Origin: Clostridiaceae bacterium
Lineage (GTDB): Bacteria > Bacillota > Clostridia > Saccharofermentanales > Fastidiosipilaceae
Direction: 5' to 3'
DNA: 33,910 nt
Assembly (NCBI GenBank): GCA_012800515.1
Contig: JAAZJE010000053.1
Coordinates: forward strand, 1 to 33,910
Below, in pieces: positions 4,973 to 28,808 of the stretch. Positions within the stretch are counted from its first letter, which is position 1. Every line of letters starts with the position of its first letter. The notes under the pieces were generated by a model, which saw only the letters and a program-made list of their open reading frames with translations, was not told where the DNA came from and ran no database searches. A program made the position numbers and the translations under genes.

Positions 4973-7900
4973 TTAATCTTCCTCGTCTTCTTCCGCTTGC
5001 AGTTCCATCTGTGCGTCGAGATGCTTGCCCAGACGGTTGTAAAGCTCCATTGCGCTGAGATTGTCGAAGCTCAGCTCGCCGTCCTTGTTTAATTGGCCGG
5101 TGCTGTAGCCGCGACCTCCCGGATCGGACTGTAAGTCAGGTAGGAATACGCTGGGCAGGCCGGTTGGGGCACGGCCCGGTAGACGGTCGCCCGCCTCGTC
5201 TTCCTGATATTCGATCCGCACATCGAGACCCAGGCTCTGCATTTCTTTGACCAGAACCTTAAAGGACTCGGGAATGCCCGGATCGGGTATGTTCTCTCCC
5301 TTGATAATCGCCTCATAGGTTCGCGTACGTCCGCGGACATCGTCCGATTTGACGGTAAGGATCTCTCGTAGGGTGAAGGCGGCTCCATAGGCCTTGAGCG
5401 CCCAGACCTCCATCTCCCCGAAGCGCTGACCGCCGAACTGAGCTTTACCGCCCAGGGGTTGCTGAGTCACCAGCGAGTACGGCCCGGTCGAACGGGCATG
5501 GATTTTGTCGTCAACCAGGTGGAGCAGTTTCATGTAGTACATGATGCCGACCGTGATGCGGTTATCGAAAGGCTCGCCGGTGCGGCCGTCATAGACAACT
5601 GTCTTTCCGTCGGGATCCATGCCGGCCCGGGCAAAGATTTCACTGATATCGCTTTCGCTGGCGCCGTCAAAGACCGGGGTAGCCACCTTAATACCGAGGA
5701 TCTGCGCCGCCCGCCCGAGATGAACCTCAAGCAGCTGACCGATATTCATACGCGAAGGCACGCCTAGCGGGTTTAGAACCACGTCGAGTGGGGTGCCGTC
5801 GGCGAGGAAAGGCATATCTTCTTCCGGCAAAATCCGGGAAATGACGCCTTTGTTTCCGTGACGACCGGCCATTTTATCGCCGACCGAGACTTTGCGTTTC
5901 TGAGCGACGTAGACACGCACCATGCGATTGACACCGTGCTTCAACTCGTCGTCGTTCTCGCGGGTAAAAGTCTTGACATTGACCACGATGCCGGACTCCC
6001 CGTGCGGAACCCGCAGTGAAGCATCGCGGACTTCGCGGACTTTTTCACCGAAGATAGCCCGATAGAGGCGCTCTTCCGGGGTCAGTTCGGTTTCACCCTT
6101 CGGTGTAACCTTTCCGACGAGGATATCGCCGGACACTACTTCGGCGCCGACGCGAATCACGCCCTGGTCGTCGAGATGCGCCAGGATATCGTCGCTGACG
6201 TTGGGAATCTCACGAGTGATTTCCTCGGGCCCCAGCTTCGTATCGCGAGCTTCGCACTCATATTCCTCTATATGGATCGAAGTAAAGACATCGTCCCGAA
6301 CCAGACGTTCGCTGATCAGGACCGCGTCTTCATAGTTATAGCCTTCCCAGGTCATAAAGCCGACCAGGACATTGCGGCCGAGCGCTAACTCCCCGTTATC
6401 GGTCGAGGCTCCGTCGGCAATGATCTCTCCCTTCTCGACCCGGTCACCGACCTTGACCAGCGGGAATTGATTGACGCAGGTACCTTGGTTGGAGCGACGA
6501 TATTTCGAGAGACGGTAGACGTCCTGCTCCAGCGTGCCGGTCGTGATAACGATCTGGTCGGAGGAAATGGAATCGACCTCGCCGCCGCGACGGGCAATGA
6601 CGCAGGTCCCCGAGTCGCGGGCGGCACGGTATTCCATGCCGGTGCCGACGATGGGCGAATCGGTGCGAATCAACGGTACCGCCTGACGCTGCATGTTCGA
6701 GCCCATGAGAGCACGGTTGGCGTCGTCATTGCTGAGGAAGGGAATCAGCGAGGTGGCGACCGAAACCAGCTGCTTTGGCGAAACGTCCATATATTCGACT
6801 TCTGCCGGATTGACCTCAAGGAATTTGTCGAGCCAGCGCACCGTGACCTTTGGGGAGAGGAAATAGCCGTCCGCGTCCAACTCCTCATTGGCCTGGGCGA
6901 TATAGTAATTGTCCTCCTGATCCGCCGTCATGTAGCGAATCTGATCCGTCACACGTCCGGTCGCACTGTCGACGACGCGGAAAGGCGTTTCGATGAAGCC
7001 GTAGCGGTTAATCCGTGCGTAAGTGGCCAGGGAGTTGATCAGACCGATATTCGGTCCTTCCGGAGTCTCGATCGGGCAGATGCGTCCGTAGTGCGAAGTG
7101 TGAACGTCGCGGACTTCGAAATTTGCTCGGTCGCGGCTCAGACCGCCGGGGCCGAGAGCCGAAAGGCGGCGCTTATGCGTCAGCTCGGCCAGCGGATTGG
7201 GCTGGTCGAGGAACTGCGACAATTGCGAAGAGCCGAAGAACTCTTTAATTGCGGCACTGATCGGTCTAGTGTTGATCAGCGTCTGCGGAGTGGCGGCTGA
7301 GGCATCCGAGATCGTGCCCATACGCTCGCGTATCACCCGCTCCATGCGGGCAAAGCCGATGCGAACCTGGTTCTGGAGCAGTTCTCCAACCGAGCGGACA
7401 CGGCGGTTCCCCAGATGGTCGATATCGTCGGTATGACCGATACCCTCGGGGATACCGACCAGATAGCTGACGGTCGCGAGAATATCCTCGACAACCAGAT
7501 GACGCGGGCAGAGTTCGGAAGCGCGTTGCTCCATAAGCTCCATCAATTCGGCCGCGACATCCCCGTTGCCGGCCTTGACTTCTTCGATAATTTCGCTGAG
7601 GACGCGGAAACGCACCATTTCGTGCAGACCAATCGCCTCCGGATCGACAGCTTCAAGCTCCCCGGCGGTAAAGAAATTGGCCAGACAGGGAAGGATTTCG
7701 ACGCGATCGTTGCCCATGACCGGAGAGAGTGTCGATGTTTCGGTGATGACACTGCCCTCATGGCGACGTACCTTAATCACGATCTCATTGATACCGGCGT
7801 TCTGAATCCGGTGGGCGAGCGCATCCGTGATAACTTCATTGGCATCGGCCAGGATCTCACCATATGCGGTCACGACCGGATGGGTAGTTAGATGCCCCTT

Positions 7901-8984: not shown

Positions 8985-10739
8985 CTACTTGCGCTCTATA
9001 TAGCGTGCTCCGAAACCGCCATCGGTAATTTTATACTTCTCGGACGACCGGGCATCTTCCATAAACTTACTGTAGGCCTCTTCCCGCAACTGCTCGGTGA
9101 TCTCGAAATGCCACTGCTGCTGCGTACCGGGGTCAAGGTAGTAGTACATAACTACGGTATTTGCCTCGACCAAAACCGTCGCATCGCCAACCTTGCGCTC
9201 GGGGGAGAAAACCCATTTGCGCCCCTCCGTCGAGAAATAGGACGGCAGTGTCTTTTCCAGCACATCTCCGTTGGTCGCGCCGCTGTTTAGAGCCACTTCT
9301 ATCGCTCCCCGAAAAGTTGTCTCGTCGGTGGCTTTCTCGACCACCTCCTGCGCTAATTTGGCCAAGCGTTCTTTCTCAGCTTTGAGTGCCGTCTCGCGCT
9401 GTTCATCGAGTTTGGTCTTCTGCGCCTCCTGCTCTTTAGCGGAGAGCGTCACTCCGGGCGTTGGCACCGGTGTCGGAATATTCGGCTCCTTCACTCCCCA
9501 AGCGACATAGCCGATCCGCGGCAATACCGTCTCCGCTCGCTTCCGCTCTACGAAGTACAGCGCATAGACATTTCCGCTACTTTCGACCGCTGTCTTATCT
9601 CCGGGCTTACGCTCGGTGTCAAAGAGCCAGCCGGAAATCTCCTTCTGGTAAATTGAGCTGAGCCGCTGTTCGGACATCAGGCTGGTATCGACAGGCTCGG
9701 CTTTGGAATCATCCTTGGAATCTTTCTCGGAATCGTTCTTCTTAGCCTCCGCGTCGAGACGGGCATTCTCTTTGGCGAACTCCTCCGGGCTGTTAATCGC
9801 CGCCAGGAAATCCTCGGCTTCTTTTTTCGCCTTGGCCAGGTTCTCGGCAATCTGCTTTTCCCGCTCGGCAGCGGACAGCGTCGGGGTCGGCGCAGGCGTT
9901 ACGCCGCCGGTCACCGCCGGGCTCGGGCTCACTGACGGAGTCGGTGAAGCGCCGACCGCCGCCGGCTTGAACAGGCGCTGATGCCAGGTCACCTCATCAT
10001 AAGCATCCTTATGGTCGCCATAATATCCCTGCACCTCGTCGTCCGTAAAGGCAAAACCGGCTCTTTTTGTCTCGGCGTACTGACCGGCGAGCGCGGAACG
10101 CTCCAATATCGGCCGCAAAACCGCCGTCGTGATGCTGCGCCCGTATACTTGTTCCAGATAATTATCCGCTCCGAACTGCCCACCATAGCGCGTGCTAAGC
10201 TCATTAAAGAAATCGTCAATCTCAGCTCGATTTTCATCAGTAAGCGTTATATTCTCCGCCCGAGCCGCGTCGGACTGGATATAAATATCCCGAATACTCT
10301 CCGCTGCTGCTTTATCCAGAAAATCTCCCCACGTGTTGCTCTCACTGCTTTCGAGCCCGACCCCGGAATTGAGATCCAGTCGTCCGCTCGCATCCTGCGG
10401 CAACATTCCGTACGATGCCTGCTGGTCATAATAATAGCGCATATTATTCCAATAATAATTGTACTCGGCCGCATAGACATTATGCGAGCCGATCCGCAAA
10501 ACCGGGAATGCCGACCGGAAAACTCCCAGCCCGCTCAAAATCCAAAGTATCGCCGCCACAACCAGAACCGTAATGATAATCGGCAGGGCGATTCGCCATC
10601 CTCGCCCCTTGGGGGAAATCGGCTTATAACCGCCGTCCTTCGACCGCCGGGCGGCCAGCCGCTCGTCGCGCTCCCGACGAGCAACCTCGTACTTTCGTTC
10701 TTTATGTCGCGGCAAACTGCGCGCTCCTTTTTTACTCAC
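8985..10739 (-). CDS. Membrane-anchored SurA_N/parvulin-like foldase with two parvulin-like repeats
   Basis: 584 aa; GTG start after GGAGGT; basic N-terminus + TM helix (IALPIIITVLVVAAILWILSGLGV), SurA_N-like helical region, two segments ending WLFDTERKPGDKTAV...VYALYFVE and WVFSPERKVGDATVL...VVMYYYLD. Confidence 0.7.
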   Translation of the reverse strand: MSKKGARSLPRHKERKYEVARRERDERLAARRSKDGGYKPISPKGRGWRIALPIIITVLVVAAILWILSGLGVFRSAFPVLRIGSHNVYAAEYNYYWNNMRYYYDQQASYGMLPQDASGRLDLNSGVGLESSESNTWGDFLDKAAAESIRDIYIQSDAARAENITLTDENRAEIDDFFNELSTRYGGQFGADNYLEQVYGRSITTAVLRPILERSALAGQYAETKRAGFAFTDDEVQGYYGDHKDAYDEVTWHQRLFKPAAVGASPTPSVSPSPAVTGGVTPAPTPTLSAAEREKQIAENLAKAKKEAEDFLAAINSPEEFAKENARLDAEAKKNDSEKDSKDDSKAEPVDTSLMSEQRLSSIYQKEISGWLFDTERKPGDKTAVESSGNVYALYFVERKRAETVLPRIGYVAWGVKEPNIPTPVPTPGVTLSAKEQEAQKTKLDEQRETALKAEKERLAKLAQEVVEKATDETTFRGAIEVALNSGATNGDVLEKTLPSYFSTEGRKWVFSPERKVGDATVLVEANTVVMYYYLDPGTQQQWHFEITEQLREEAYSKFMEDARSSEKYKITDGGFGARYIERK

Positions 10740-19210: not shown

Positions 19211-19612
19211 AATTCTTTACACGGAAATTTTTCCTTGAAGAGGACTTTTACCTCAAAAGTTATCCACATTTTGTGGATAATTGGTATAAGTTTATGTGGA
19301 TAACTAAGATATCCTTTTTATCCACATCTTATCCCTCTCACGGAAAAAACTTATCCCCAAAAATGTGGATGCGCAACGCCTAGGAAAATAAGGCACGAAA
19401 GCACTTATCCCACTTATCCACAGAGTATAAGAAGAATAAGAATAAAACCATATTATTAAATAATGATTTATATATTTTCTCTCTGGACCGAAAATATCAT
19501 GTTTGCACTGATTAAGATACTACTAAGAAAGCAGCAAAGATGAAACATACCAAATACCGCTAACGCCGCAAGCTATATTTTATGGTAAAATAGCACAACA
19601 ATATCAGAACGA
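19211..19612. other. oriC: Replication origin (oriC) between dnaA and dnaN
   Basis: Exact DnaA boxes (TTATCCACA): 19260-19268(+), 19272-19280(-), 19295-19303(-), 19318-19326(+), 19414-19422(+); near-matches at 19329, 19351 (TTATCCCCA) and 19405; AT-rich stretch about 19430-19480. Confidence 0.93.
19583..19591 (+). promoter_or_regulatory. Putative dnaN promoter, extended -10 TGgTAAAAT
   Basis: TG 19583-84, TAAAAT 19586-19591, no recognizable -35. Confidence 0.45.
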
Positions 19613-22519: not shown

Positions 22520-24574
22520 ATGACGAGAGACAAAGAAGATCAGGACATCATTTTAGAGGAAGAACAACGTCAGGAAAATCAGGAGTTGTTGGACGGCGAC
22601 GAACCGTTCGAGGAATCCGAGCAGGATGCGACTCTACTCAATTCACAGGATGCCTTCAGCACGGTAAGCACGGCGCGTTACGACGAGAGAGATATCCAGG
22701 TGCTGGAAGGACTCGAGGCGGTGCGCAAGCGCCCCGGCATGTACATCGGCGACACGACGATGCGCGGTTTGCATCACCTTATATATGAGATCGTGGCGAA
22801 CTCAATAGATGAGGCTCTGGCCGGACGGTGCACAGATGTGTGGGTGACCCTGCGCCCGGATAAAAGCATCGTTGTTGAGGATAACGGTAGCGGGATACCG
22901 GTCGGCATGCACCCGACCGCCGGAATACCGACGGTTGAGGTGGTCCACACGGTGCTGCATGCCGGCGGTAAGTTCGGCGGCGGCGCGTACAGCATCAGCG
23001 GCGGTCTGCACGGCGTCGGTGCCTCTGTAGTCAATGCGCTTTCCAAGGCCATGCGCGTTACGGTAAAGCGGGACGGCAAAATCTATCAGATCAGTTTTGA
23101 GCGCGGCGAGACGACCGAGCCGCTTGAGGTCATCGGTGAAACCGATCCCGCCGATACCGGCACAAAAACGGAGTTTTGGCCCGACCCGGAAATCTTTGAC
23201 GAAGTAGAGTTTGACTTTGACACAATGCTAAAACGCTATCGGGAAATGGCCTTCCTTAACAAGGAGATCATAATTACCCTGATTGACGAGCGCGATCCGG
23301 AGAATATCGTCCGCAAGAAATTACACTATGACGGCGGAATAATATCCTTCGTCGAATATCTCAATCGCAGTCGCCAGGCGCTGTTCTCGCCGCCGATATT
23401 CATTGCCAAACGCACGGACAATGAATACGTTGAAGTAGCAATTCAGTACAATACATCATACGCAGAGAGCATATATTCATATGCAAACAATATAGCTACG
23501 GTAGAGGGAGGAACACATATGACCGGCTTCCGCTCCGCCCTGACCAAAGTGATAAACGACTATGCCCGTAAATATAAATACCTCAAGGACAATGATAAAA
23601 ACTTCGCCGGAGAAGACGTGCGCGAAGGCATAACGGCAATTATCAGTGTAAAGCTCCCCGTCCCGCAGTTTGAAGGCCAGACCAAGAGCAGGCTCGGAAA
23701 CGCAACAATGCGTACCCTGGTTGAAACGACGATGAATGAGCGCTTGGCGTTGTATTTAGAGGAAAACCCCGCCGTCGCGCGCCAGATTATCGATAAATGC
23801 CTGGCAGCGTCGCGAGCCCGTGATGCTGCGCGGAGAGCGCGTGATTTGTCGCGAGCCGCCAGCGCTTTTGAAACGGTTTCTTTGCCCGGCAAACTCGCCG
23901 ACTGTCAGTCAAACGATCCCACGCTCTCCGAACTCTTCATCGTTGAAGGAGACTCGGCAGGTGGCACCGCCAAGAGCGGGCGCGAGCGCAAGTATCAGGC
24001 GATTCTGCCGCTTTGGGGAAAAATGCTCAATGTCGAACGTTCCCGCGTCGACAGAGTATACGCGAATGAAAAGCTCCAGCCGGTAATTATGGCCATCGGA
24101 GCCGGGATCGGCAGTGATTTTGACATTGATCGTGCCCGTTACCACAAGGTCATCATCATGGCCGACGCCGATGTCGACGGATCGCATATCCGCACCCTGC
24201 TACTGACTTTCTTTTTCCGTTATATGCGTCCCCTGGTCGAAGCCGGCTGTGTCTACATCGCCTGCCCGCCCCTTTATAAGGTTCAGGAAGGCAATAAGTT
24301 CTTCTACGCCTATGACGAGGAGGGTGTCGAGCAGATCAAAACGGAACAGGGTTGGTCCAAGCCGCGCCTGCAACGTTATAAGGGCTTGGGAGAAATGGAT
24401 GCCGAGCAGCTCTGGGAGACGACCATGAATCCCGCCACCCGCAAGTTGCTTAAAGTGACCGTAGAGGATATCCAGAGTATCGACGAAACCGTCGCACTCC
24501 TGATGGGGCCCGAAGTTCAGCCCCGCCGCGAATTTATTATCGAGAATGCCCAATACGCCCGTCTCGATCTTTAG
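22520..24574 (+). CDS. gyrB: DNA gyrase subunit B
   Basis: 684 aa; LEGLEAVRKRPGMYIGDT, SGGLHGVGASVVNALS, FIVEGDSAGGTAKSGRERKYQAILPLWGKMLNVE, MADADVDGSHIRTLLLTFFFRYM, QRYKGLGEMDAEQLWETTMNP. Confidence 0.97.
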   Translation: MTRDKEDQDIILEEEQRQENQELLDGDEPFEESEQDATLLNSQDAFSTVSTARYDERDIQVLEGLEAVRKRPGMYIGDTTMRGLHHLIYEIVANSIDEALAGRCTDVWVTLRPDKSIVVEDNGSGIPVGMHPTAGIPTVEVVHTVLHAGGKFGGGAYSISGGLHGVGASVVNALSKAMRVTVKRDGKIYQISFERGETTEPLEVIGETDPADTGTKTEFWPDPEIFDEVEFDFDTMLKRYREMAFLNKEIIITLIDERDPENIVRKKLHYDGGIISFVEYLNRSRQALFSPPIFIAKRTDNEYVEVAIQYNTSYAESIYSYANNIATVEGGTHMTGFRSALTKVINDYARKYKYLKDNDKNFAGEDVREGITAIISVKLPVPQFEGQTKSRLGNATMRTLVETTMNERLALYLEENPAVARQIIDKCLAASRARDAARRARDLSRAASAFETVSLPGKLADCQSNDPTLSELFIVEGDSAGGTAKSGRERKYQAILPLWGKMLNVERSRVDRVYANEKLQPVIMAIGAGIGSDFDIDRARYHKVIIMADADVDGSHIRTLLLTFFFRYMRPLVEAGCVYIACPPLYKVQEGNKFFYAYDEEGVEQIKTEQGWSKPRLQRYKGLGEMDAEQLWETTMNPATRKLLKVTVEDIQSIDETVALLMGPEVQPRREFIIENAQYARLDL

Positions 24575-24697
24575 GCAGAAGACGAATTGGAAACAGAGCC
24601 GGTCGCAAACCTTGTGAGGCATATTTTTGTCATATTTATGCTGTAGAGACCGCATATAATCGTGCTCCCCAAAAACTTATTGCAAAGGCACGGAAAT

Positions 24698-26839
24698 ATG
24701 CGTCGTTATATTTTAAGCGATGACGACGATATCGTCATTAAGGAAAGCCAATTTAAAACAGTCGGTTATGAACTGTTATACTATTATACTTTTTGCTATT
24801 TAGACTTACCAAAGCACTTAACAAATCTTAGCTTCAGCAGACAAGAGATAATCATGGTTATAGTGCTGCTTTTTGCAAGGCTTCATTCAAAGCTGGCACT
24901 GAATACAAAAACAGCAAAAATAAGAGTACTTCTACGTGAGACAGGTCTCGAGGAAATCATCTTAAGCGGGCACAGCGCCCTTCGAGAAAGGGAAGCGCAT
25001 GGTTCTCTCCAAAAGACAGAGGCGCAAGATCTCCTTCGAAAGGCAGAAATACAAAAGTATCTTCATGAAATAGTTACCGAGTTGGAACGAGTAAATGTTG
25101 TAGGCGATGTCAAAGGCTTTTTTGCCCTACAGCATAAACTTGGCAAAAGTATTCCTTCCCTAGTTAGTAACCTACGCAGAAACTACCCCCAAATAGTCAC
25201 TGCTAATATGGCCTTCTTATTGAGCTCTCAAGGCCAAAGAGTCTCCGAAACGCCCTTATTCAAGGCGAGAACTCAATATGTGCGGCTCTTCCCTCGAAAG
25301 GGCTTCGTGTTGCCGTGCCGAATCAGCAACATTCCTATGAAAACATGGCGAATCGAGTGTTACCGAAAGGGAGAATCCCGTTTAAGGAGAAATAAGGTAA
25401 ATCCGGTCGATATAATTTTATTGCGACGTATTCTTCCTCAGCGAGAATATTTTCTCCGCCTGAATTTACGCGAGACGGAAATGCCGCTGATATTTTGCCG
25501 GGATCAAGCCGCCTCAAAAGACATGACAAAGCGAGATTTTACTGCCGGTCTAAAAACAAAATACGGTGAGACACCGGTTTTTGCCCTGTTCTTGTTCTCG
25601 CGGGCATATAATTTCCTGTTTTCTCGCGGTATTGCGGCTTTCCGCAAGACTTTAAATAAAATGACGACTGGTTCACTAAAGAAAACCCGTAGAAAGAAGA
25701 AAACATCCGGAAGAGCTTTACGGCTCCGTATAGAGAACAGCACTTCGGACTCCAAAGAGAAGCACAGAGTAAAGAAAATGGATCGACTCAAATACTTTGT
25801 GATGAGAAAAAACACGACAGCAATAATAAATCGTTTGAGAGCACATCCACTCTTTCTCTATTTCTCGTTACCGCTCCTACGCCGTCTGGAGATATCAGAC
25901 ATATTCAAGAAAAAAGATCCGAAGAGGATCAACAGAAGAAGATTCAAGAATAATGCCCCGGAGAGTGACAGCGAAAGCAAGGCAAAAGGTGCGAGCAGAA
26001 TTATTGTGGCGGCACGCCTGGCGATATTACTGCTGGAAAAGCTATTGGCACTAAAATTCAAGGTCAAGCGTAATCGAATACTGAAACTTTATCTCATGTC
26101 CGCCGATAAGGAGAACTTACTGCGAGAAAACAACGGACTGGAACTGCTGTATGAACATCTGAAGAGCCTCGAAATGAGAGCGGAGAGTATATCGGCAACT
26201 GAGTATGAATCAAATCGTAACAATCTATATGCGATTCAGGGATTAACGGAGCTGCAAAAGATCGTTCAACGCGGCATTTTAATCAGATTATTGGAAACAA
26301 AAGCATTATTGCACGAAAGCAATCTCGATTTTCCCTTTTCCGGGGTTTATATGCGGAAAATCTTGTTGGCCGACATAGATGGCAATTTAACAGAGATCCG
26401 ACAGATTGGAGGACTAAACGGAGAAATACGACGAACCTTTGCCACGCTGGGAATAGAGCTTCCTCCCGGTTATCAGACCGATCGGACACCGAAAAGAAGC
26501 CGAAGAGGAGCAAAAAGACAGTTGTTTGCAACGAGAGAAGGCGCTATTACTGCCCCAAGGAGAAAAAAGCGAGGGAAAAGGCCATTGAGCCTGCCGGAGC
26601 ATAGAGCATCCGGGAAATGCTTTATCTCTCTATATGCCGACAGATGTCCGTTCTACAGCGTTGGGGAGAAAAGATGCGGCAAAGTTTGCGCTCAGCGTAT
26701 TCCAATGAAGGGCATCCCGTTTGTTTCCCGTACTTTAGCGAAGAAATATCCGAACGTGGCGGAAGAAGTGCCGGAGTATGGACTTGCAAGATGTGGGGAA
26801 CAACCCGAAGAGCAGCTCTCACGCTATCTTCCCGACTGA
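24698..26839 (+). CDS. Large basic protein of unknown function (orphan), C-terminal four-Cys motif
   Basis: Uninterrupted ORF of up to 725 aa (GTG 24662) or 713 aa (ATG 24698, MRRYILSDDDDIVIKESQF). Lys/Arg-rich blocks (KKTRRKKKTSGRALRLR; PRRKKRGKRPLS) and C-x8-C-x9-C-x3-C. No family recognised. Confidence 0.85.
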   Translation: MRRYILSDDDDIVIKESQFKTVGYELLYYYTFCYLDLPKHLTNLSFSRQEIIMVIVLLFARLHSKLALNTKTAKIRVLLRETGLEEIILSGHSALREREAHGSLQKTEAQDLLRKAEIQKYLHEIVTELERVNVVGDVKGFFALQHKLGKSIPSLVSNLRRNYPQIVTANMAFLLSSQGQRVSETPLFKARTQYVRLFPRKGFVLPCRISNIPMKTWRIECYRKGESRLRRNKVNPVDIILLRRILPQREYFLRLNLRETEMPLIFCRDQAASKDMTKRDFTAGLKTKYGETPVFALFLFSRAYNFLFSRGIAAFRKTLNKMTTGSLKKTRRKKKTSGRALRLRIENSTSDSKEKHRVKKMDRLKYFVMRKNTTAIINRLRAHPLFLYFSLPLLRRLEISDIFKKKDPKRINRRRFKNNAPESDSESKAKGASRIIVAARLAILLLEKLLALKFKVKRNRILKLYLMSADKENLLRENNGLELLYEHLKSLEMRAESISATEYESNRNNLYAIQGLTELQKIVQRGILIRLLETKALLHESNLDFPFSGVYMRKILLADIDGNLTEIRQIGGLNGEIRRTFATLGIELPPGYQTDRTPKRSRRGAKRQLFATREGAITAPRRKKRGKRPLSLPEHRASGKCFISLYADRCPFYSVGEKRCGKVCAQRIPMKGIPFVSRTLAKKYPNVAEEVPEYGLARCGEQPEEQLSRYLPD

Positions 26840-26929: not shown

Positions 26930-26945
26930 TGTTTCACGTGAAACA
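26930..26945. promoter_or_regulatory. parS: parS site 1
   Basis: TGTTTCACGTGAAACA, exact match to the ParB/Spo0J parS consensus (TGTTnCACGTGAAACA). Confidence 0.97.
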
Positions 26946-26966: not shown

Positions 26967-26982
26967 TGTTTCACGTGAAACA
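26967..26982. promoter_or_regulatory. parS: parS site 2, within a 32-bp near-perfect palindrome (26959-26990)
   Basis: CTCGGGA a TGTTTCACGTGAAACA c TCCCGAG; 37 bp centre to centre from site 1. Confidence 0.97.
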
Positions 26983-27070: not shown

Positions 27071-27856
27071 ATGGCATACATAATAGCGGTAACAAATCAA
27101 AAGGGAGGAGTGGGGAAAACTACCACTACACTCAATCTCGGGGCATACCTTGCCAGAAGAGGGAAAAGAGTACTAATTATTGATTTAGACGCTCAGGGAA
27201 ACGCGACATCGGGCTTAGGCTTTGACAAGACAAAGCAAACACCCAACATATACCACTGCTTGATCGACGGGTTGCCGATCGATTCCGTAATTCGCGATAC
27301 CGGCCGCCGTAATTTATCACTTTGTCCGGGGAATATTGATTTAGCCGGGGGAGAGGTTGAGTTGGTAAGGATACCTAGTCGCGAGTTTCGCCTGCGCGAG
27401 GTTCTGACGGGAATGCAGCAGAAATTCGATTTTGTTCTTATTGACTGCCCGCCCTCCTTGGGGCTCATGACAGTTAACGCTCTGACGGCGGCTCAAGGCG
27501 TCCTGATCCCGATTCAGGGGGAATACTACGCCCTGGAGGGAGTGTCGCAGCTAATGAATACAATTGAGCTGGTCCGTTACCAGCTTAATCAGAATTTGAT
27601 AGTTTTCGGGGTTGTGGTTACGATGTATGACGTGAGGACTCAGCTCTCGGCTCAAGTTGCCGAGGAAGTTAGAAAATATTTTAAGGAGCACGTTTTCAAT
27701 ACAATTATTCCACGTAATGTTAGATTAAGTGAGGCTCCCAGTTTTGGAAAGACTATAGATGAATATGAAAAAAAGTCTAAAGGTGCGTTAGCATATCATG
27801 AACTAGCCAAAGAGGTTATAGAAAGAGAAAAAAAGACACGTTTTTTATATGCATAA
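27071..27856 (+). CDS. parA: Chromosome partitioning ATPase ParA/Soj
   Basis: 261 aa; AVTNQKGGVGKTTTTLNLGAYLA deviant Walker A, VLIIDLDAQGNATSGLG, FVLIDCPPSLGLMTVNAL. Confidence 0.97.
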   Translation: MAYIIAVTNQKGGVGKTTTTLNLGAYLARRGKRVLIIDLDAQGNATSGLGFDKTKQTPNIYHCLIDGLPIDSVIRDTGRRNLSLCPGNIDLAGGEVELVRIPSREFRLREVLTGMQQKFDFVLIDCPPSLGLMTVNALTAAQGVLIPIQGEYYALEGVSQLMNTIELVRYQLNQNLIVFGVVVTMYDVRTQLSAQVAEEVRKYFKEHVFNTIIPRNVRLSEAPSFGKTIDEYEKKSKGALAYHELAKEVIEREKKTRFLYA

Positions 27857-27893: not shown

Positions 27894-28808
27894 ATGAACC
27901 GAGAAGATACGGCGGATAGGACGGAAAAAAGGCGCACGAAAGGGCTCGGCCGCGGTCTGGGTGCTCTGCTGGGCTCGGATATAGCAATAGAACCGAGGCA
28001 AACGCCGGCTAATCAGATCGTTGATTTGCAGATAACGCTAATAGAGCCCAATGAAGATCAGCCGCGCAAGAGCTTTGATGAGGGGAAACTGGCGGAGCTG
28101 GCAGCTTCAATAAAAGAAAACGGTATTATCCAGCCGATTATAGTGACTCGCAAAGACGGCCGCTACATTATTGTTGCAGGAGAGCGGCGTTGGCGGGCAG
28201 CTCAAATGGTCGGCCTGAAGACAATTCCGGCCATTATCCGTGAATTGACCGATAAGGAAGTGGTGCAACAGTCGCTGATTGAAAATATTCAGCGCCAGGA
28301 TCTCAATCCGATCGAAGAAGCTGAGGCCTTTTCGATGCTGATGACGGAACATAATATGACTCAAGAAGAGCTCGCACAGATACTTGGGCGAAGCAGACCG
28401 GCGGTGGCCAACACTCTGCGTCTCCTGCAGCTGGGAGCGAGGACAACGGAGTATGTGATTAGAGAACAAATTTCCGCGGGGCATGCCCGTGCGCTGTTGG
28501 CAATTTCCGATCCGGTTCTCCAGGCATCCATGGCGGAGGAAATTATGCGCCGAGATTGGAGTGTAAGGCAGACCGAAAACCGTATCAGGCAAATGCAGCG
28601 GCAGCAGAAGCAGGAAAAACCGGAGGTCCAGGATGAGGATGAGGCGTATAATCTTGCTCTGCAGACTGTAACGGAGCGCCTTACCGAGCTCTTGGGAACC
28701 AGAGTAAAACTACAGGATCGCAAAAACAAAGGCGACATTGTGATTAGTTACTCTTCTTTAGATGAGCTGAACCGCATTTTGGATCTGATTGTAGGTAGGA
28801 TAAAATAG
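27894..28808 (+). CDS. parB: Chromosome partitioning protein ParB/Spo0J
   Basis: 304 aa; KGLGRGLGALLG, NEDQPRKSFDE, GERRWRAAQMVGLKTIPAIIRELTDKEVVQQSLIENIQRQDLNPIEEAEAF, HTH MTQEELAQILGRSRPAVANTLRLL. Confidence 0.97.
   Translation: MNREDTADRTEKRRTKGLGRGLGALLGSDIAIEPRQTPANQIVDLQITLIEPNEDQPRKSFDEGKLAELAASIKENGIIQPIIVTRKDGRYIIVAGERRWRAAQMVGLKTIPAIIRELTDKEVVQQSLIENIQRQDLNPIEEAEAFSMLMTEHNMTQEELAQILGRSRPAVANTLRLLQLGARTTEYVIREQISAGHARALLAISDPVLQASMAEEIMRRDWSVRQTENRIRQMQRQQKQEKPEVQDEDEAYNLALQTVTERLTELLGTRVKLQDRKNKGDIVISYSSLDELNRILDLIVGRIK

Follow-up and report, generated by a model that had tools for sequence, protein, structure and literature searches.

A genus-restricted, fast-evolving basic protein encoded between gyrB and parS-parAB in a member of Fastidiosipilaceae

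The window analyzed here is a stretch of 33,910 nucleotides of a Clostridiaceae bacterium (assembly GCA_012800515.1, contig JAAZJE010000053.1) that carries dnaA (17834), dnaN (19643), recF (20807), a weak RemA-like ORF (21927), and gyrB (22520–24574, plus strand; Pfam DNA_gyraseB, Toprim, and HATPase_c). gyrB is followed by an orphan gene, downstream of which lie two parS sites identified as exact matches to the TGTTTCACGTGAAACA motif (26930–26945 and 26967–26982), parA (27071–27856; Pfam AAA_31), and parB (27894–28808; Pfam ParB_N, HTH_ParB, and ParB_C), all on the plus strand. The gene order proposed in the first-pass annotation, dnaA-dnaN-recF-remB-gyrB-orphan-parS-parA-parB, was recovered here with the weak RemA-like ORF in the remB slot. 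A series of DnaA boxes resembling TTATCCACA, noticed by eye only in the interval between dnaA and dnaN (19260–19430), likely marks oriC. Upstream of rpoB, a 584-aa ORF on the minus strand (8985–10739) gave a sub-threshold match to SurA_N_3 (E 0.00086) and perhaps encodes a diverged peptidyl-prolyl isomerase-type protein.

The ORF listing and translation gave an uninterrupted frame at 24662–26839 on the plus strand, comprising 725 codons when counted from GTG 24662. The probability of 725 stop-free codons arising by chance is ~6e-20 at the base composition of the ORF itself, and the remaining five frames of the region contain 23–45 stops. In the alignment of the upstream regions, GTG 24662 is replaced by GTT in the congener described below, and a 1-nt indel between this codon and the conserved stretch TTGCAARGGCACGGAAATATG puts it out of frame there. 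Because the congener lacks GTG 24662 and has that position in another frame, the gene most likely starts at ATG 24698 and would encode a protein of 713 aa (24698–26839 including the stop codon), an extent consistent with the translation and the conservation in the congener. Thus, the open frame annotated initially is present, while the 725-aa protein deduced from it is probably to be shortened to 713 aa. A candidate ribosome-binding site, AAAGG (AAGGG in the congener), is located at 24684–24688, 9 nt upstream of ATG 24698. GTG 24662 abuts a TATAAT box (24655–24660, plus strand) that is common to the congener and could serve as a −10 element, albeit a weak one, as a good −35 element is absent; the consensus promoter scan did not list this box.

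The search of GTDB contigs for relatives of the orphan retrieved one match (L001), which belongs to the metagenome-assembled genome AS21ysBPME_159 from a biogas-reactor survey (PMC7038595). Among the genomes searched, this is the only other species of the genus, and its orphan occupies the same place between gyrB and parS-parAB; the searches of other genera did not find the gene. The two proteins share 73% identity from end to end. Their alignment contains four indels, every one a multiple of three, and no stop codon. The 383 substitutions are distributed over the first, second, and third codon positions as 113, 104, and 166, respectively, with an excess at the third position; a neutral simulation of the same number of substitutions gave 10.7 expected stops (minimum of 2 in 2000 runs) in contrast to none observed. 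As only two orphan sequences exist, conservation was measured on this one pair, which yielded a dN/dS of 0.32; the corresponding values for gyrB, parA, and parB in the same species pair were 0.034, 0.036, and 0.084, respectively, and dS was close between the orphan (0.47) and gyrB (0.50). With a dN/dS of 0.32, no stops, and in-frame indels, the orphan is a genuine protein-coding gene under purifying selection. We rejected the possibility of an RNA gene, as Rfam gave no match in the window and the coding statistics were clear.

No Pfam family matched the orphan at E ≤ 1, whereas the neighboring true ParB scores 2.4e-36, and a Pfam search including fragments with E up to 10 gave just two chance-level matches (E 0.011 and 0.017), both below the cut-off and each found in one of the two species. 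Neither NCBIfam, PHROGs, PADLOC, nor PDB sequences provided a match at useful scores, and none was found in plasmids, phages, or IMG/VR. A profile built on the two sequences, and thus of limited reach toward distant homologues, detected the orphan in the two carriers only among 190 genomes of the order, and gave no convincing match in 391–392 genomes of the class or 398–399 genomes of the phylum. Two class genomes passed E ≤ 0.01 with 15–16 bits, one over unrelated short frames and the other over a short stretch with two stops. The weak match in G014 was rejected, as the 742-aa ORF containing it is unrelated and looks like an AMP-binding synthetase, and those in G121, G144, G116, G164, G491, and G131 were rejected for want of a matching long protein; the remaining weak matches were all of 7–16 bits and short or interrupted by stops. 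No paralogue was detected in the genome of the window or that of the congener (G007), and a search of open-access papers brought up none on an orphan gene between gyrB and parA. Altogether, across the family, order, class, and phylum, the GTDB contigs, and the viral, plasmid, and phage sequences, the orphan appears to have no homologue outside its clade. The first-pass annotation had regarded the protein as lineage-specific and of no recognizable family, and the database and whole-genome searches agree on both points, the gene being confined to two species of one genus. It had also named two findings that would speak against its reading, namely a confident match to a known family, of which none was found in the family databases searched, and absence from the same locus in close relatives, which is not what the congener displays.

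The orphan protein was described initially as strongly basic with an acidic N-terminus, and this description holds: its pI is 10.3, Lys and Arg amount to 140 residues against 72 Asp and Glu, and an acidic patch is present at the N-terminus. The N-terminal region (24698–25306; residues 13–215 in the 725-aa frame) shares 78% identity with the congener and is predicted to be helical by low-confidence models. It is followed by a Lys/Arg-rich linker at 25658–25780 (approximately residues 333–373 in the same frame), recognized from the charge profile and showing the lowest amino acid identity (~60%), and by a 24-residue basic stretch that the alignment shows to be missing in the congener (25889–25960). 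A second basic linker in the charge profile (26462–26617), overlapped by a segment of near-neutral dN/dS, precedes a C-x8-C-x9-C-x3-C cluster (26618–26689; Cys 653, 662, 672, and 676). All four Cys residues are kept in both species, and the cluster is a candidate metal site, for which Pfam including fragments gave no family match. The basic linkers are thus the least conserved part of the sequence, while the helical parts and the C-terminal Cys cluster are kept. The AlphaFold models based on the two-sequence alignment were uninformative (pLDDT 32 for the full length and 43 for the N-terminal part) and too poor for any surface reading, but they suggest that the N- and C-terminal parts are helical. 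Foldseek searches of these models against PDB returned nothing at E ≤ 0.001, and the TM-scores, mostly 0.1–0.2, were regarded as noise. No fold, domain, or motif, including any DNA-binding domain, was recognized by the Pfam and model searches. An association with nucleic acids would fit the blocks of Lys and Arg, the pI of 10.3, and the four Cys residues kept in both species, and the orphan may be a protein of modular build that binds nucleic acids and possibly holds a metal. Ribosome-binding and membrane-binding proteins are basic too, so that nucleic-acid binding does not follow from a basic composition by itself.

We surveyed the gap between gyrB and parA in the order, counting the genomes in which the two genes are neighbors that share a contig and an orientation. 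In 127 such genomes among the matches listed, the median gap was 288 bp; 108 gaps were of 600 bp or shorter and 15 exceeded 900 bp, two of the latter being those of the orphan carriers and 13 those of others. The other long gaps examined hold unrelated genes in different lineages, with Pfam identities tested on one example of each and extended to the others by sequence likeness. In the family f2, the gap contains a gene for a beta-eliminating lyase (PF01212), in some genomes together with one for a LigT phosphoesterase (PF02834), and parS sites lie alongside in the f2 genomes L031–L037; we therefore rejected these gaps as containing a remote homologue of the orphan. Double-zinc-ribbon proteins (DZR, PF12773) were found in the family f3, and an MFS transporter (MFS_1, PF07690) in G009, a member of the window's own family, while several short gaps contain parS arrays only. 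The orphan resembles this cargo in occupying the same slot, where several cargo genes likewise have parS alongside, but is unrelated to it in sequence, and the cargo genes belong to recognizable families. Thus, the gyrB-parA gap of this order repeatedly takes up cargo, and the neighborhood is therefore weak evidence for a partnership. An association of the orphan with parAB or gyrB conserved across genera was not found: the association is seen in one genus, and elsewhere the gap is either filled with different genes or free of them.

As the best explanation, to which we give about an even chance, we propose that the orphan encodes a genuine, genus-restricted, fast-evolving, basic protein that is probably cytoplasmic and binds nucleic acids. 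Helical N- and C-terminal parts would be joined via the Lys/Arg-rich linkers, through which DNA or RNA may be bound, and the C-terminal four-cysteine cluster may hold a metal. The gene would have arisen in or entered the genus and then settled in the cargo-tolerant gap between gyrB and parS, so that its place beside parS would reflect the permissiveness of the site and not a part in the work of ParABS or gyrase.

The orphan could instead have come to lie between gyrB and parS by insertion, either as a defence gene or as a domesticated gene or remnant from a phage or mobile element. Its confinement to one genus, fast evolution, and C-terminal Cys cluster are consistent with such an origin, as are a GC content of 44.3% in comparison with 54% in gyrB and a codon use unlike that of rpoBC. 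We nevertheless regard this origin as unlikely. The high use of AGA noted in the first-pass annotation is indeed above that of rpoBC, and of gyrB as well, but it is not distinctive: AGA makes up 33% of the Arg codons in the orphan and 35% in parA, which is also similar in GC content (45.5%). Since parA uses AGA equally, neither the AGA use nor the GC content is evidence of foreign origin. Furthermore, the phage, plasmid, IMG/VR, PHROGs, and PADLOC searches were all negative, and we rejected a viral or phage origin on the basis of those against viral and phage sequences. We recognized neither target duplications nor inverted repeats at the termini, though old insertions lose such marks.

The first-pass annotation suggested an organizer of the origin region or a partner of ParABS or gyrase, and a lineage-specific protein working there with ParB-parS or gyrase seems improbable to us. 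The orphan is basic and, in both species, has gyrB on one side and parS-parAB on the other, and its 3′ end is ~90 bp from parS, which would place it within any ParB-spreading zone. It resembles organizers of the ParB/Noc type in adjoining parS and in its suspected DNA-binding character, but differs from them in having no ParB_N or HTH_ParB match in Pfam at E ≤ 1. The proposal was based on the location, yet the same gap is filled with unrelated cargo or parS alone in other genera, and other genera of the window's family possess parAB and parS without the orphan. In addition, the dN/dS of the orphan is ~4–9 times those of gyrB, parA, and parB, its supposed partners. The slot had also been taken as a frequent place of gyrA, but gyrA is on another contig of the same genome (G000:C18) and does not adjoin gyrB there or in the five relatives checked. 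We thus rejected the orphan as a replacement of gyrA, and nothing suggests that it displaced that gene.

There is also a small chance that the orphan belongs to a known family, ribosome- or replication-associated, but has diverged so far that the similarity is eroded. The fast evolution and the little reach of a two-sequence profile would allow for this, whereas the Pfam fragment search yielded chance-level matches only and the gap of other genera contains no equivalent. Improbable, in our opinion, is a new family of chromosome-associated proteins with an unseen fold, invented in this one genus and acting at the parS region beside ParB.

Returning to a genus-restricted nucleic-acid-binding protein in a cargo-tolerant gap, the orphan can be compared with the FESNov catalogue, which comprises 404,085 families of unknown genes with a restricted taxonomic range in uncultivated taxa (PMC10849945). 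Like those families, it has no known homologues, is under purifying selection, and is syntenic, and it is known here from fragmented genomes only, at least one of which is metagenome-assembled. Unlike them, it is long (713 aa) and adjoins core origin genes, and two genomes are too few for clade coverage. We regard the orphan as a clean case of a large, selected, genus-restricted gene within the most conserved neighborhood of the chromosome, and the repeated uptake of cargo by the gyrB-parA gap of the order as a caution against inferring function from such an address.

Several minor observations were made in the gene and the gap. The inverted repeat TTTTCTCGCGGTA / TACTGCGAGAAAA occurs inside the orphan, at 25617–25631 and 26118–26132 in the window and at 5949–5970 and 6391–6412 in L001, with the arms ~420–490 nt apart in both species. 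It may be a coding coincidence, and we claim no role for it since it lies in coding sequence. Gaps of ~800 bp with no long gene were found in L008 (G008), which contains six exact parS sites, and in L007 (G010), where repeated GTTCCACGTGGAAC-type palindromes are possible variant parS sites. In L006 (G011), from the window's family, the orientation of parAB with respect to gyrB is reversed at this place, unlike in the remaining family members.
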